A stretch of 23,406 nt of DNA from a virus: IMG/VR virus record IMGVR_UViG_3300042731_003860, positions 1 through 23,406 of that record; one strand, given 5' to 3'. Positions 8,123 to 23,406 of this stretch are shown here, one piece after another. The translations under genes and the position numbers were made by a program. The notes beneath the pieces were generated by a model. It was not told where the DNA came from. It did no database searches and saw only the letters and a program-made list of their open reading frames with translations. Every line of letters starts with the position of its first letter. Position 1 is the stretch's first letter.

Positions 8123-8259
8123 GGTCCACCTCCCCTCTCCCCGCCGGAATGCGGGCTGACCTGCCGATCGCCACCTCCCGGAACTCGTCCGGACCGGGCG
8201 GCGGTTGCACGGCTACGGCAGCCGGTACGTTCCCTCCGCGTAGCGCGTCCCGGCAGGTC

Positions 8260-8736
8260 CTACGGCGTCAGGTCGATCACGAACACCCCGGCCGCGTCCC
8301 ACGTGATGCTGAGGGTCCCGGCCGTCGGGCTGTAGTCGCCCCCGAAGTCGATCAGGCAGATCGCGTTGTCCCCGGCGAGCGCGTCCGCGTACAGCAGCGC
8401 CGCCCGGGCGGCGGACACGGTGACGGTGGCCACCGACACGTCGGCCATGTCGTAGACCATCGTCCCGGACGACGCGGTCAGCGTCGGGCTGGTCGACCCT
8501 CCGCCGGACGCGGCGGCCGACAGGGCGACGCCGCCGGAGGGCCAGTTCGTTCCGGAGACCTCGTTGGCGTCGTACGGGGAGGCCCCGTAGGCGGTGTCGG
8601 TGGTGAAGTTCGGGGTGATGCTGTTGCTGAACAGCGCCAACTTGTGCGTCGCCAGCGACAGATCCACCGCGAGCTGGGTGGCGTCGAAGGCGTCCACGAA
8701 GGTTGCCACGTACAGCCCGGAGGCGGTGACGGCCAT
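8260..8736 (-). CDS. Conserved phage structural protein, head-decoration type (158 aa)
   Basis: ATG 8736 overlaps no coding sequence but begins 1 bp after the preceding stop, with GGAAGGA seven to eight bases upstream. The product starts MAVTASGLYVATFVDAFDA and contains LALFSNSITPNF, ANEVSGTNWPSGGVAL and a C-terminal LSITWDAAGVFVIDLTP. This is a widespread actinophage virion family with a NEVSGxxY/W centre and a SITWDAAGIF-like end. The fold looks all-beta. Location among capsid-proximal genes suggests a capsid or head-fibre component; the exact role is not known to me. Confidence 0.75.
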   Translation of the reverse strand: MAVTASGLYVATFVDAFDATQLAVDLSLATHKLALFSNSITPNFTTDTAYGASPYDANEVSGTNWPSGGVALSAAASGGGSTSPTLTASSGTMVYDMADVSVATVTVSAARAALLYADALAGDNAICLIDFGGDYSPTAGTLSITWDAAGVFVIDLTP

Positions 8737-16605: not shown

Positions 16606-17169
16606 TCACATTCCGGAGGCCTCTTCGGCGAGCGCGTCCAGATCGGTCAGCGCGACGTTGATCAGTAGGCGGGTTCTGAGCACCGCCGCGACGCACCCCG
16701 AGGTAACTTCCCGGCCGGGAGCACAGGATCTGCCGGGGTCCAGATCGGTGTCGACGATCCGGTTGAGGTCGGTCAGCGCACCGTGGACGATCGAGATGTC
16801 GATGCCACCGGGATCCGGCTGACCGACGAGCGCGGTCCCCGCGTCGAGAGCGGCGGCCACCGCCACGGCGGAGCAGTCGATCATCGCCGCCTCGGACGCT
16901 TCGTCGGGGACGGTCGGGCAGAAGCCGAGGGCGCTCCGTGAGGCGGTCAGGATCTTCGAGGTGGACCGGGTCCAGGCGACGAGCCGGGCGACCGAGGTCA
17001 CCCCGGGGCTTCCGACCACGCTCGGTGACGACGGGGGCGGTGCCGGGCTCGGGTCGCCGGTGCTCCGCCCCGTCCCGCATCCGGTCAGGACCACCAGGGC
17101 GAGGGCCAGGCAGACCACGGTGACGGCGACCGGCGCGGCCTTGATCGGGTCGAACTTACGTAGCTTCAT
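16606..17169 (-). CDS. Secreted lipoprotein with four conserved-looking Cys (187 aa)
   Basis: Residues 1-10 are basic (MKLRKFDPIK), 12-28 are hydrophobic, and a lipobox LTGC places the lipidated Cys at 31. A Pro/Ser/Gly linker follows, then a mainly helical domain with Cys84, Cys99, Cys149 and Cys159 that could form two disulfides outside the cell. It has no enzymatic motif that I recognise. It lies between the candidate origin and the small terminase, 50 bp from the latter. Phage lipoproteins of this design are known in some systems to block superinfecting phages (such as Ltp of phage TP-J34); that role here is inference. Only a weak ribosome site precedes ATG 17169. Confidence 0.78.
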   Translation of the reverse strand: MKLRKFDPIKAAPVAVTVVCLALALVVLTGCGTGRSTGDPSPAPPPSSPSVVGSPGVTSVARLVAWTRSTSKILTASRSALGFCPTVPDEASEAAMIDCSAVAVAAALDAGTALVGQPDPGGIDISIVHGALTDLNRIVDTDLDPGRSCAPGREVTSGCVAAVLRTRLLINVALTDLDALAEEASGM

Positions 17170-17187
17170 GGGGTGTCCGTTTCGTCT

Positions 17188-17313
17188 GGGTTGTGCGGGT
17201 TGTGGGGCTCTCCGAGGGGCCGTGTCAGGGTTGTCAGGGCAATCCGTGAAGTTGGTCGACTCGTTTTCCTATAGGCTCGCGGAGGTTTACGGATTGCTCT
17301 GACAACCCTGACA
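17188..17313. repeat. Iteron cluster with 25-bp inverted repeat, candidate replication origin
   Basis: Arms 17223-17247 and 17289-17313 are inverted copies with a single mismatch, separated by 41 bp that include TTTTCCTATAGG. Each arm holds two tandem 9-mers (TGTCAGGGT then TGTCAGGGC, or TGTCAGAGC in the right arm). The heptamer GGGTTGT appears on the + strand at 17188, 17197 and 17228 and inverted at 17302-17308. The cluster starts 10 bp after the primase-helicase stop. The arms are seen directly; the origin role is inferred from iterons next to a replication initiator. A transcription terminator or packaging site is an alternative. Confidence 0.6.
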
Positions 17314-17322
17314 TGATCTTGG

Positions 17323-19623
17323 TTAGTACCCCCTCCCGCCGACCATCCGGCTCCGGTTCGCGGCCGTGAAGCGCACCCCAGAGAGCACCAGCGGGCGGCT
17401 CGGCAACTCGGGCCATGCCTCCCCGTCCGACGGCGGCCGGACCAGGTCGTCGTCCTCGCGTTGCCTACGCTCCGTGACCCCCGAGTAGGTCGGGTGGGTG
17501 CTCATCCGCTGGACGATCAACTTGGCCGACCACGGGGCCATCCCGTTGCACCTGAGCCACCGGCCGAAGTGCGCCACGAAGTCCGTCTTCGACACCACCG
17601 AGTCGAGGTCGAACTCAAGGTTCTCGTCGGCGTACCCGAGCATCAGGTCGTTCGCCATCCGCCACTGCCTGGTGGCCTCGCGCACGGTCGGGCACCGCCC
17701 GTCGTCGTCGTCCCGCTTGCCGATCCGCAGCGGCGATGCGTCCTCCAGGGCCGCCATCGCCCCCTCCACCAGCCAGGTCACGATGGCGTCGTGCTGGCCG
17801 TCCTCGCCCTTGGCGAGTCGCCGCTTCAGCCCCGGATCCCCGGGCAGCTCCAGCGGGCCGCTCGGGTTCGAGGCGAAGGTGAACGGGAACGGGACCATCG
17901 TCAGCCGCCGCCAGGTGCCCCAGTCGGTCTCGGTGACGTTGGGCGCGTAGTTCGTGTTGATGAACAGGTCATGGCTGGCCCGGAAGGTGATCGGCTTCTC
18001 GTAGAGCTGGCGCGCCCGGATGGTCGACGTCCCGGCCACGTCCTTGATCCGCTTCGTGTTCAGGTAGAAGTCCTGGGGCAACTCCTCGATCAGGGCGAAC
18101 CGTACGCCCCGCAGAGCGACCAGTTCCGGGCTGGCCGACCGGTCGTCCGCCTTCGACCCGCCGACCAGCTCGGAGGGGCTTCTGTGGCCGTAGGAGCCGA
18201 CCGCGACGAACACCCCGTCGTTGCCGATCGCCGTCTTGCCGTTCTCGCCCTCGCCGTGCAGCAGCACCGCGTCGTCGGCGATCTGCTCGCCCACCGTCGC
18301 CGCGCCGAATCGGATCTTCGCCCACGCCCTGGTGTCGTCGTCGGGCAGGGCCTCCAGCGCCTTGGTCCAGTCGGGGTGGGTGAACCCGGGCCGGTACGCC
18401 CCGGCCGTGATCTTCGTGAGCAGCAGGTCCTGGTCGTGCGGCAGCAACTCCCCGGTCCTCAGGTCGGCCACGCCGGACTGGGTGTTCAGCAGGTAGGGGT
18501 CGGCGTCGAAGACGTCCCACGGCTCGTCCCCGTCGACCGTGGACACGAGCCTGAGGGCCGCCACCGTGGCGTTGATCTTGGCGATCGACAACCGGGAGGC
18601 GAAGAACTCGGCCCGCTTCTTCAGGTTCCGCTTCGAGTGGTCGGCCGACCACCCGGCCAGGGCGTGGTCGAACCTGGCCTTGTAGAAGTCCTCCACGGAT
18701 CCGGCCACCTGGGTCTCCGAGCGCGGCGCCCAGCGCTTGCCGTCCCAGAGCAACCAGCCGATCCCGTCGCAGTATTTCAGGCCCAGGTTGATGCTGGACC
18801 AGATGAACCGGGCCTGACCGGCGTCGGTCCCCCAGTCGTTCGGTGCGTGGTCGTCGTCGTCCTCGCCGAACAGTCGGGAGAGCACGTTCTCGTCGTCCGG
18901 GTCTACCGCCTTCGGCAGCGCGCCGACGGGCGGTTCCTCGGGCTCGGCGAACGTCAGCAGTTCCAGCACGGTCCCCGCCGGGTTCTGCGACCGGGCGAGC
19001 ACGTCGTCCAGACCGTCGGTGGGCCCGACCATCAGCTCGGGCGGTAGGTCGATCGTGGACACGTCGGCGGCTCCTGCCTCGTAGGCCAACCGCACGGTGG
19101 TGGCGTGGCCGGTCTTCACGTCGGTGTTGGTGTGCCGGTCCCCGTCGAACGAGACGACGACCTTGCGACCGGACAGCGGGGACAGGTCCGTCAGGCCGTT
19201 GACGAGCGCCTGGCACCCGAACACGGCCCAGACGGCCCACTCGTCCGGTGCCCAGGTAGCCGCTGCTCTGGCCTGCTTGGTGCCTTCCTGGAGCAGCACC
19301 GGGCCGCCGGGCCGGCCCTCGCGGACGACGGCGATCGGGGTGTACCCGCCCTTCTCCTTGCTGCCGAACACGTACTTCACGGGCTTGCCGTCCCTCCCGA
19401 CGGCCGGGTTGTCCGGTCTGGCCTGCCAGTAGGTGCGCCCGTCGAGCCCGGGGGCGGCCAGCATCAGCGCCGGGAGTCGCATTTTCGAGTTCTTGGCGAG
19501 GTAGTCGGGCAGGTCCTCGCCGCGCTCGGCCGTGTAGTCGCCGAGGGCGTCGATCACCCCGTCGGAGATGGCCGCCGCGTGCAAGAGGGCCCGGTGCTCG
19601 GCCGACAGCTTCAGCGAGCCCAT
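17323..19623 (-). CDS. Primase-helicase, Toprim plus D5-like SF3 helicase (766 aa)
   Basis: ATG 19623 overlaps the 71-aa gene stop as TGATG; an open frame upstream to 19695 is a shadow. Residues about 1-210 resemble the Toprim (DUF3854-like) primase region of phage and plasmid replicases, with LLQEGTKQA (Glu113) and VVVSFDGD (Asp160, Asp162). After an acidic linker (about 240-262) comes a D5-N-like region and the SF3 helicase core: Walker A GEGENGKT (457-464), Walker B FALIEELP (509-516), sensor-like DLFINTNYAPNV (552-563) and a WRRL arginine motif (571-574). It is the only replication gene in the window and may melt the origin, unwind DNA and prime synthesis, using the host polymerase. Confidence 0.9.
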   Translation of the reverse strand: MGSLKLSAEHRALLHAAAISDGVIDALGDYTAERGEDLPDYLAKNSKMRLPALMLAAPGLDGRTYWQARPDNPAVGRDGKPVKYVFGSKEKGGYTPIAVVREGRPGGPVLLQEGTKQARAAATWAPDEWAVWAVFGCQALVNGLTDLSPLSGRKVVVSFDGDRHTNTDVKTGHATTVRLAYEAGAADVSTIDLPPELMVGPTDGLDDVLARSQNPAGTVLELLTFAEPEEPPVGALPKAVDPDDENVLSRLFGEDDDDHAPNDWGTDAGQARFIWSSINLGLKYCDGIGWLLWDGKRWAPRSETQVAGSVEDFYKARFDHALAGWSADHSKRNLKKRAEFFASRLSIAKINATVAALRLVSTVDGDEPWDVFDADPYLLNTQSGVADLRTGELLPHDQDLLLTKITAGAYRPGFTHPDWTKALEALPDDDTRAWAKIRFGAATVGEQIADDAVLLHGEGENGKTAIGNDGVFVAVGSYGHRSPSELVGGSKADDRSASPELVALRGVRFALIEELPQDFYLNTKRIKDVAGTSTIRARQLYEKPITFRASHDLFINTNYAPNVTETDWGTWRRLTMVPFPFTFASNPSGPLELPGDPGLKRRLAKGEDGQHDAIVTWLVEGAMAALEDASPLRIGKRDDDDGRCPTVREATRQWRMANDLMLGYADENLEFDLDSVVSKTDFVAHFGRWLRCNGMAPWSAKLIVQRMSTHPTYSGVTERRQREDDDLVRPPSDGEAWPELPSRPLVLSGVRFTAANRSRMVGGRGY

Positions 19624-19838
19624 CAGGCGACCCTGACCTTCAGGGTCGAGCCGTCGCACGTGCAGTCGCACACGCTGCCGAGGAGCACTCTCCACTCGTG
19701 CTCGGTGTGCCTCTCGTGCTCGTCGCCGAGGACGCGGGAGTCGATGTCGGCCAGGATCTCGCGGGCCTGCTCCCCCACGGCGATCTGGTGCCGGAGAAGC
19801 TCTCGGAAGGTGATGGGAGGGTCTGTTATCGTGCTCAT
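19623..19838 (-). CDS. Small Cys/His-rich early protein (71 aa), unknown
   Basis: ATG 19838 lies two bases after a small hairpin with AAGGAG displayed across the loop edge. The protein is helical at the start (FRELLRHQIAVGEQAREILA). It then has three His in HERHTEHEW (41-49), three Cys in VCDCTCDG (57, 59, 61) and a basic strand at the end. The Cys and His could bind a metal. It is coupled by TGATG to the primase-helicase, suggesting a partner or regulator in replication. I know of no family. Confidence 0.68.
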   Translation of the reverse strand: MSTITDPPITFRELLRHQIAVGEQAREILADIDSRVLGDEHERHTEHEWRVLLGSVCDCTCDGSTLKVRVA

Positions 19839-21093: not shown

Positions 21094-23406
21094 TCACAGC
21101 GGGGCCGCGCCGTTCAGTGAGTAGTAGGTCGGGCGGAACAAGGAGACCTCGTCTCCGGACGATAGTGCCTTCACGATCCCGTTCACGGAGCGGGTCACGG
21201 TGAAGGTCTGGGGGGACGACGAACCGCTGACGGCCGTGACGGTGATGCGCTCCCCGGACACCGTCACGTCCAGGGGGAACTCTCCGCCGTCCGTAGTCCA
21301 CAACGGTCCGTCGGACGTCGCGACCGACAGGGCCGTCGCCGTGCTCGTAGCGTCCGAGGCCAGGGTCGACAGGCCGCCGTCGAACCTGGTGCCGTCCCTG
21401 TCGTCGTCGTAGACGGCCACGTGGTACGGACTCTCGGGAACGCAGGTGAAGGTGATGTCGTGCGTTCTCTGGTTGATGACCTCGGAGTAGCCGCGCACCA
21501 GTTGGGACACGTCGTCCGGCGGCATCCACGACGGGGGGTCGGTGACGACGAACCGGTCCCCGACGTCCAGCCTGAGCAGTTGGTAGACCAGGTCCTGGTC
21601 CGATGCCACGTGAGCGCTCGCCATGCTCACCGAGATGACCGGGTACCTGGCCTCGTCCACGGTACCGAGGTGGAGACGCCACCCGGCCTGGTGCTCGGCG
21701 GAGGCATCCCTCGCGAGGGACACCGAAAACGCGGATGAGTACCGCCCGACGCCGTCCGGCGGTTGCTGCACGCTCATCGGTCCGGACTCCTGCACGGCCC
21801 GGAACGACGAGCCGCCGTTGCGGGAGACCGTAACGTCGTTGCGGATCGTCTGGTCGTCCTCCACGGGGTAGAAGGACTGCAACGCCTTGGAGGTGTAGGC
21901 GACGGTGCACGTCGGGTCCTGGGAGGTCATCGAGGACAGCGTCCGGAGCTGGAGGCCGTAACCGTCCCTCGGCTCGTACAACACCCCGTTGTCGGCGATC
22001 GCCGCGTTGTTCAGGTTGTTGATCAACGTGTCGACGGTCTGGTATCCGGTCATCTCGGAATCACCGTCCCCACCGCCGACGATCCGGAACGGGATACCCT
22101 CCTCGGTGCACAGCCGATTGACGCGCGTCGCGGCCAACTCACCGAAGTAGGCGTTGGCTTCGTTGGCCAGATCGTAAATCGTCGTGATCTCGGACTCGAC
22201 CGTAACGTGACCGATCGCGATACTTCCGACGTCGGCCTCCGCCGGGTTGAAGTCGACCGCGACGGCGCGTCCTATCTGCTCGCTGGAAAGAGTCCCGTCG
22301 ACGTAGTAAGCAGCGGCAATTCCGATCGTCTGCACCGCGAGCACGTAGTAGACGTCGGAACCGGTGTTGTTCACGGCGACGTGGATGCGGATGTGCTTGT
22401 CGTCGACGTCGAAGGCCGTCGGCCCGTCGTCGAGCACCAGGACGTTGTCGTTGTCATACGCCCTGATAGACAGGGCGCCGCCGGTGCCGTAGACGACCTC
22501 CCACTTAGCGGCCGACCCGGACGTGAATAGCTTGGCAACGACCGTCCCGCCGGTCGTGGACGACGGGACGTACGCCAGGAACCGGAACTGAATCTCGCCG
22601 GTCGGGTCGTAGACGTCGACCGGTGCGTACAGACGCCCCGTGCCGAGGGAGACCACGGGGGAGCTGCACACGAACCCCGAGTGGGAGGCGAACGACGGCG
22701 CCCCCCGGTACCGCATGATCGAGTTACCGACGACAGCGGAGACGATCTGCGAGTCGGCCCCGTCCTCGATCGGCCAATACGAGACAAGGCTCGTCGCAGA
22801 CACATTCGGAATCGAACGACGCATCGCGGATTGCAGGTTCGAGGACCCGGAGATGAGGCGACGCCGGATGCTGGCGGCCTCGATCGGGGTGCGCACGTCC
22901 CTCCCGGTGATATCCCAGGTCTGCGGCCACCTCGCCACCTCGCCCCAGAACCGGAAGTGCATGTTGTCGACACCGACGTCCGTGCCGAACATCTCCCAGG
23001 TGTTACCGGCCGCATCGTCGAAGGAGGACACGCCGGACGTCTGGGCCGTGAAGTCCGGATTGGCGACCTCGGTTCCGCCGATTCCGTCGACGACCTTGAG
23101 GGCGTAAACCTCCATCGGGGCGGTCGAGTAGCAGATAAGTTTCGTGCTTCCGTCGTAAATACTGGTCGTTCCGGACCCGGTTACGGTGTCGAACAGAACC
23201 CACGACCCGTCGATCGTCGAATCGTCGCTGGAGTAGAACCTCCCGGTGTGGCCGCCGCTTCCGTTGTCCACGTCGAGCGTGACCCTCAAGGACTTACGCC
23301 CGGAGATGCTCCCAGGGATCGGAACGGTCGACGTGAGCGACCCGGTCGTCGATGCGGAATCCCACCACGTAATCCGAAGAAGGCCGTCCGGGGTGACGGT
23401 GAGGTA
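21094..23406 (-). CDS. Tail-tip / minor tail protein, C-terminal part (starts at 490 across the join)
   Basis: This is the rest of the 912-aa protein; 23343-23406 repeats bases 1-64, and the frame stays open to the window end. The part includes FWGEVARWPQTWDITGRDVR, a LamG/concanavalin-like domain at about residues 345-530 of the joined protein (LVSYWPIEDGADS near its start), a hub-like region (GFVCSSPVVSLG earlier, RLCTEEGIPFRIVGG and FYPVEDDQTIRNDVTVSRNG later), then DPPSWMPPDDVSQLVRGYSE and a small beta domain at the end. These patterns are usual in actinophage tip proteins. It likely joins tube, tip and receptor binding. The LamG-like part may bind cell-surface sugar. A TTG at 23289 is internal, not the start. 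Confidence 0.85.
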   Translation of the reverse strand, partial: YLTVTPDGLLRITWWDSASTTGSLTSTVPIPGSISGRKSLRVTLDVDNGSGGHTGRFYSSDDSTIDGSWVLFDTVTGSGTTSIYDGSTKLICYSTAPMEVYALKVVDGIGGTEVANPDFTAQTSGVSSFDDAAGNTWEMFGTDVGVDNMHFRFWGEVARWPQTWDITGRDVRTPIEAASIRRRLISGSSNLQSAMRRSIPNVSATSLVSYWPIEDGADSQIVSAVVGNSIMRYRGAPSFASHSGFVCSSPVVSLGTGRLYAPVDVYDPTGEIQFRFLAYVPSSTTGGTVVAKLFTSGSAAKWEVVYGTGGALSIRAYDNDNVLVLDDGPTAFDVDDKHIRIHVAVNNTGSDVYYVLAVQTIGIAAAYYVDGTLSSEQIGRAVAVDFNPAEADVGSIAIGHVTVESEITTIYDLANEANAYFGELAATRVNRLCTEEGIPFRIVGGGDGDSEMTGYQTVDTLINNLNNAAIADNGVLYEPRDGYGLQLRTLSSMTSQDPTCTVAYTSKALQSFYPVEDDQTIRNDVTVSRNGGSSFRAVQESGPMSVQQPPDGVGRYSSAFSVSLARDASAEHQAGWRLHLGTVDEARYPVISVSMASAHVASDQDLVYQLLRLDVGDRFVVTDPPSWMPPDDVSQLVRGYSEVINQRTHDITFTCVPESPYHVAVYDDDRDGTRFDGGLSTLASDATSTATALSVATSDGPLWTTDGGEFPLDVTVSGERITVTAVSGSSSPQTFTVTRSVNGIVKALSSGDEVSLFRPTYYSLNGAAPL
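23343..23406. repeat. 64-bp terminal overlap, right copy
   Basis: This is the second copy of bases 1-64. Removing it gives a circle of 23,342 bp. Confidence 0.95.

Follow-up and report, generated by a model that had tools for sequence, protein, structure and literature searches.

The window analysed here, the whole 23,406-nt stretch of viral DNA in IMG/VR record IMGVR_UViG_3300042731_003860, carries a 64-nt exact direct terminal repeat (positions 1-64 and 23343-23406), and the two parts of a single tail gene lie at opposite ends of it (phrog_5313 positions 141-300 and 297-1049). These two features justify treating the sequence as a circle, as had been assumed in the first-pass annotation; the record represents a complete genome of 23,342 bp, either circular or circularly permuted. 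All identifiable genes are located on the minus strand, and include those for tail, tape measure, capsid, protease, portal and terminase, together with a lipoprotein-like ORF and a primase-helicase. In the proteins scanned, no matched family was an integrase or a DNA polymerase, and the nearest phage genes belong to actinobacterial phages.

Between the stop codon of the primase-helicase gene (17323) and the start of the next gene (17169) there is a non-coding gap, most of which is occupied by a single-copy inverted element of 91 bp (Table 1). Its two arms (17223-17247 and 17289-17313) are complementary at 24 of 25 positions around a 41-nt spacer, as had been described from the letters alone; ungapped extension lengthens the arms to 28 nt (93%, with a 35-nt spacer). 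The inverted repeat scores 22, vs. a best score of 11-15 per shuffle when the complete 23.4-kb record was dinucleotide-shuffled 60 times. Both arms consist of two tandem 9-mers (consensus TGTCAGGGT followed by TGTCAGRGC), and a third box comes after the second of these iterons. The word GGGTTGT, with eight copies in the genome, occurs four times in the cluster (plus strand at 17188, 17197, and 17228; minus strand at 17302), and the outer two copies form part of degenerate iteron-like words (3 mismatches in 13). The spacer is among the lowest ~1% of 41-nt windows in GC content. The first-pass annotation had also placed the element right after the primase-helicase gene and seen no coding signal in it; both statements hold, since its outer end lies 9 bp past the stop codon and only a spurious antisense ORF overlaps it. 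A crude terminator and promoter scan detected nothing at the element (neither a T run nor a sigma-70-like promoter), an Rfam search of it returned no family, and a DNA-level similarity search of phages gave no match.

Table 1. Coordinates of the inverted element and of the neighboring features in the window.
Feature	Positions	Strand	Remarks
Two degenerate iteron-like words, CGTCTGGGTTGTG / TGTGCGGGTTGTG	17183..17204	+	outside left arm; 9-bp-spaced
Iteron 1, left arm, TGTCAGGGT	17223..17231	+	
Iteron 2, left arm, TGTCAGGGC	17232..17240	+	tandem at 9-bp period
Third box, left arm, AATCCGTGA	17241..17249	+	TYCGGTTAAC-like in relatives, same register
41-nt spacer	17248..17288	.	51% GC vs. 68% in the genome; proposed melting region
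Third box, right arm, AATCCGTAA	17287..17295	-	
Iteron 2, right arm, TGTCAGAGC	17296..17304	-	
Iteron 1, right arm, TGTCAGGGT	17305..17313	-	
Non-coding gap containing the element, 153 nt	17170..17322	.	
Primase-helicase, D5_N / SF3 helicase	17323..19695	-	790 aa from GTG, 766 aa from internal ATG
C-terminal 127 aa of the primase-helicase	17323..17706	-	modelled winged helix (pLDDT 89); proposed iteron reader

The adjacent gene encodes an SF3 helicase of the D5 type (D5_N match, E = 1.6e-19); the length of 766 aa given for it previously corresponds to the reading from an internal ATG, the full ORF being of 790 aa. At the N-terminus a TOPRIM-like DUF3854 match is weak (E = 0.013), and no match to a Prim-Pol (archaeo-eukaryotic primase) domain was found in the protein. 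For the helicase part, the model obtained (pLDDT 87) is that of a D5/SF3 ring subunit, and its best PDB folds are full-length viral D5/PrimPol primase-helicases forming hexamers and dodecamers. The C-terminal model is closest to RFX DNA-binding winged helices in the PDB, with a probability of 1.00 and modest E values of 0.008 and 0.06; the P4 C-terminal domain is not among the 50 structure matches listed for this model, and a sequence search for the P4 C-terminal structure did not find it.

The exact arms were found in no viral contig, and conservation was therefore sought in form. The only exact-arm match in bacterial genomes (L055, Lachnospiraceae) was rejected: at positions 2146-2331 of that locus, TGTCAGGGTTGTCAGGG words are joined to a GGACGGTTCTTCTGTCACC hairpin, a REP-like arrangement beside an unrelated gene. 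A primase profile search of viral contigs gave 28 loci, which were scanned for long-arm inverted repeats (score of at least 16, spacer of at least 15) within 260 bp of the helicase unit. Nineteen such repeats lay near helicase units (14.6 kb), vs. 4 in the remaining 270.6 kb. Within the arm, the tandem period that fitted best was 9 for 15 of the 19, weakly so in one case, and two others had arms made of two 10-mers. The iterons themselves vary by lineage, e.g., TAGACGGGT-TAGACAGCT, GAGACAGGG-GAGACAGGC, GGGGAACAG-GGTGAACAG or AGGGACAGC-AGGGACAGC. A second scan, in which four 9-mers were scored with mismatches (threshold of at least 24) over 49 loci comprising relatives and reference replicons, gave 26 inverted tandem 9/10-mer pairs beside the helicase unit (38 kb) vs. 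4 elsewhere (416 kb), and none in 400 kb of Markov background. The period was 9 in 21 of the pairs and 10 in five, and the outer span had a median of 87 bp (interquartile range 84-89). Three of the four outsiders (L044, L048, and BPP-1) are clearly elements of this kind situated farther from the gene. Many distinct iteron families are represented among the loci, but the P values for the association take no account of the relatedness of some loci (six share one iteron family) and are therefore too favorable.

Other traits recur with this layout. A TYCGGTTAAC-like third box is common to the window and to loci L029-L042 despite their different iterons; the third box after the second iteron recurs more than in shuffled sequence (6.1 vs. 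5.2 ± 0.2), the motif having been picked by eye in the same data. Iterons of the GGTGAA type are found in L028, L064, and L065. In L028 (6728-6818), L036 (7089-7177), and L059 (4751-4839), the inverted iteron pair is part of a fused ORF and occupies the linker that follows the helicase part, where the iterons encode repeats such as GEQGEQ or GGPGGP; in L028 and L036, this iteron-bearing linker precedes a DNA polymerase domain. In L046, L049, and P4 crr, the iterons are kept without good pairing of the arms, which favors protein binding sites over a structure. An RNA hairpin after the primase gene, such as a terminator or an mRNA structure, is accordingly a very improbable reading: the 25-bp stem does fold well as RNA (z -5.1), but its loop would be of ~41 nt, with neither a T run nor an Rfam family to its credit, and such a hairpin needs neither a tandem 9-bp periodicity nor a fixed span. 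A mobile miniature repeat (MITE/REP) would explain a short element with inverted ends, and the Lachnospiraceae locus does have the same words in a hairpin; nonetheless, that hairpin has a 3-nt loop and no primase, the window element is present once with no target duplication seen, and from lineage to lineage the sequence changes while position and spacing persist. We give this possibility hardly any credence.

The close relatives of the virus qualify this picture. The presence of the arms in relatives had been suggested as a check; in this sense, the layout does recur beside helicase genes, whereas the arms in their exact form do not. The closest primase relative (L003, 42% identity) has no element on its 16.4-kb contig, a comparison that is incomplete because the contig, which has no end repeat, begins inside the replication region. 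No convincing element was found anywhere in the genomes of phages OscarSo and Isperia, nor was one found near the primase-helicase gene of phages LuckyBarnes and FuzzBuster. L014, whose terminase is 69% identical to that of the window and which has no detectable homologue of the window primase, carries iterons of its own (GCAGGGAAC, three times, at 8141-8261) 3' of its replication genes. A cos or pac packaging site near the terminase genes would be in keeping with the small terminase candidate that begins about 0.6 kb from the element; however, only one of the 13 loci picked by their large terminase (L015) has an element, this locus is also the only one with a D5 primase, and its element adjoins the primase and not the terminase. 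Since plasmids carry the element too (see below), we consider a packaging role highly unlikely.

Repeats of other kinds were also observed in the loci examined. In Streptomyces phage Geonosis (L011, 3524-3674), a perfect 33-bp inverted repeat with an 85-bp spacer, bearing TGGCAGAAG-like repeats at its edge, is located on the 5' side of the primase gene, at a distance of about 0.4 kb. In L010 (8742-8867; CAAGTAGC repeats) and L012 (8620-8701; paired CGTGAGTCGTCTCACG), sigma-factor-like or DNA-binding genes are preceded by clusters of repeats, possibly operators. A cluster of GGATGCCAG / CATCCCC repeats is present at 2471-2579 of L020, which is related by its terminase but differs in its replication region.

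Plasmids with related primases (n = 8) were sampled after the layout rule had been set. All eight possess an inverted iteron pair, which in seven is beside or overlaps the helicase unit. In the six Streptomyces plasmids the element follows the helicase unit at 60-115 bp on its 3' side, and in one of them it lies inside a fused ORF; in the Deinococcus plasmid it overlaps the 3' end of the gene (GGTGAA iterons), and in the Thermaerobacter plasmid it is placed 0.6 kb 5' (GTGAAC iterons). The latter two plasmids (L064, 754-859, Thermaerobacter; L065, 3863-3975, Deinococcus) show three tandem GTGAAC/GGTGAA iterons per arm, near to P4 type I. As the plasmids share neither late genes nor packaging functions with the window, the element speaks for replication, and against a packaging or late-promoter role. 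The latter would involve repressor dyads flanking a spacer promoter of the late operon that starts at 17169 (lipoprotein, small terminase, terminase, and capsid). Such an operator would fit the location of the element, where early genes give way to late ones, and the word TATAGG in its spacer. It would also fit the TAGACGGG group, whose element has TATAGAG in the spacer and precedes the primase-polymerase gene by 160-200 bp. On the other hand, no sigma-70-like promoter emerged from the crude scan, the element tracks the helicase unit even in plasmids devoid of phage late genes, and in L028, L036, and L059 it is found inside the fused ORF after the helicase part; this reading is thus quite improbable.

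From sequence, structural models and analogy, we consider that the element very probably serves a small tailed actinophage-like virus as its origin of replication, or as an essential portion of that origin, and is most likely a new member of the P4/pRN1 type of origins. We infer that binding, melting and initiation all occur at the element. In the mechanism that we propose, the primase-helicase, whose gene ends 9 bp from the element, would bind the two tandem 9-mers of each arm through its C-terminal winged helix; on the inverted arms, two helicase assemblies would be seated facing in opposite directions, at an end-to-end distance of ~90 bp and positioned by the fixed ~87-bp span; the SF3 motors would then melt the AT-richer spacer, and the N-terminal primase domain would prime both forks, to be extended by host enzymes. 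The arms could also form a hairpin. Iteron similarity tracks the recognition-helix region beyond helicase-core similarity (partial Mantel r = 0.25, P = 0.016, a modest effect), also in a thinned locus set (r = 0.27, P = 0.008). The first-pass annotation had proposed cumulative GC skew as a check, with a minimum lying elsewhere counting against an origin here; the minimum is near 5.8 kb and the maximum near 12.7 kb, neither at the element, which formally goes against the proposal but is uninformative, as skew is a poor origin test when all identifiable genes are on one strand.

The same annotation had compared the element with the iterons found beside SF3 initiators in P4-like and plasmid replicons, and this layout does recur in unrelated phages, in plasmids, and in P4 crr, pRN1, and BPP-1. 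The origins of PICIs (including SaPIs) have two iteron sets around an AT-rich region just 3' of rep (PMC6092414), and in the window, too, an AT-richer region is bordered by two sets of iterons directly after the 3' end of the initiator helicase gene; the likeness is one of layout, the iteron letters lying outside the comparison. PICIs are helper-dependent satellites, whereas the window has its own terminase, portal, protease, capsid and tail genes. In SCCmec, the D5-type helicase Cch2 binds direct repeats downstream of its own gene via its C-terminal domain (PMC7581432), the difference being that these are three 5-nt iterons.

The likeness to P4 extends further. Tandem 9-bp-spaced iterons in an inverted pair, 3' of an SF3 primase-helicase gene, are present in both; P4 crr, directly 3' of the alpha gene, contains TGTTCACA and TGTTCACC 9 bp apart, and its inverted pair is separated by a 35-bp gap. 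The C-terminus of P4 alpha is described as a winged helix (Yeo et al., 2002, as cited in PMC4234260), the fold modelled for the window protein. The iterons differ (GGTGAACA for P4 type I, TGTCAGGGT in the window), although viral-contig locus L028 uses GGTGAACAG, akin to P4; a literature search with the P4 iteron string gave unspecific matches. Furthermore, P4 is a satellite and the window a full phage, and P4 has, apart from crr, an annotated origin containing repeats of types I and II, while the window has one element only. In P4, alpha binds crr, yet the annotated origin lies elsewhere, so the window element could by analogy be an accessory site: bound by the helicase and needed in cis, with synthesis starting at a second site. 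P4 has exactly such a layout at crr, 3' of alpha. We regard this as unlikely, given that no second comparable iteron cluster was found in the window (next best score 21 vs. 25) and that the single element of pRN1, its stem-loop, is necessary and sufficient in cis for replication (PMC4234260).

The origin that we favor also resembles that of pRN1, where a ~100-bp inverted repeat (91 bp in the window) lies just 3' of a primase-SF3-winged-helix gene; in stem-loops of this type, the form is conserved and the sequence is not. pRN1 differs in its archaeo-eukaryotic primase domain, its 58-nt loop and its archaeal host. Its origin has been said to have no iteron structure, and the motifs recognized were left unidentified (PMC4234260); nevertheless, the stem-loop arms can be read as tandem 9-mers, TTA followed by TGTCCATAG and TGTCCAACT. 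In the same way, the arms of the BPP-1 stem-loop, 3' of the replication gene, read TTGCCTCGT-TTGCCTCGT (the near-identical stem-loop of BIP-1 is the one named in PMC4234260). These sequence comparisons are a sign of a new point, i.e., that the “stem-loop” and “iteron” origins of this helicase family share one layout. Taken to its full extent, this point would mean that a single architecture underlies every SF3/D5 primase-helicase origin, from P4 crr and the stem-loops of pRN1 and BPP-1 to the elements of actinophages and Streptomyces plasmids: an inverted pair of tandem 9-bp iterons with a fixed outer span of ~87 bp, joined in one large group by a TYCGG-like third box, and recognized by the C-terminal winged helix. 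What is called a stem-loop would then be a geometric template seating two helicase rings rather than a hairpin, and it may sit in the coding linker of fused primase-polymerases; we see the arguments for and against so broad a generalization as evenly balanced. The layout provides a simple rule for finding the origins that go with P4-family primases in phages and plasmids alike, namely an inverted pair of tandem 9-mers spanning ~87 bp beside the helicase unit, and the tandem 9-mers in the pRN1 arms offer an answer to the question, left open in PMC4234260, of which motifs the pRN1 initiator recognizes.
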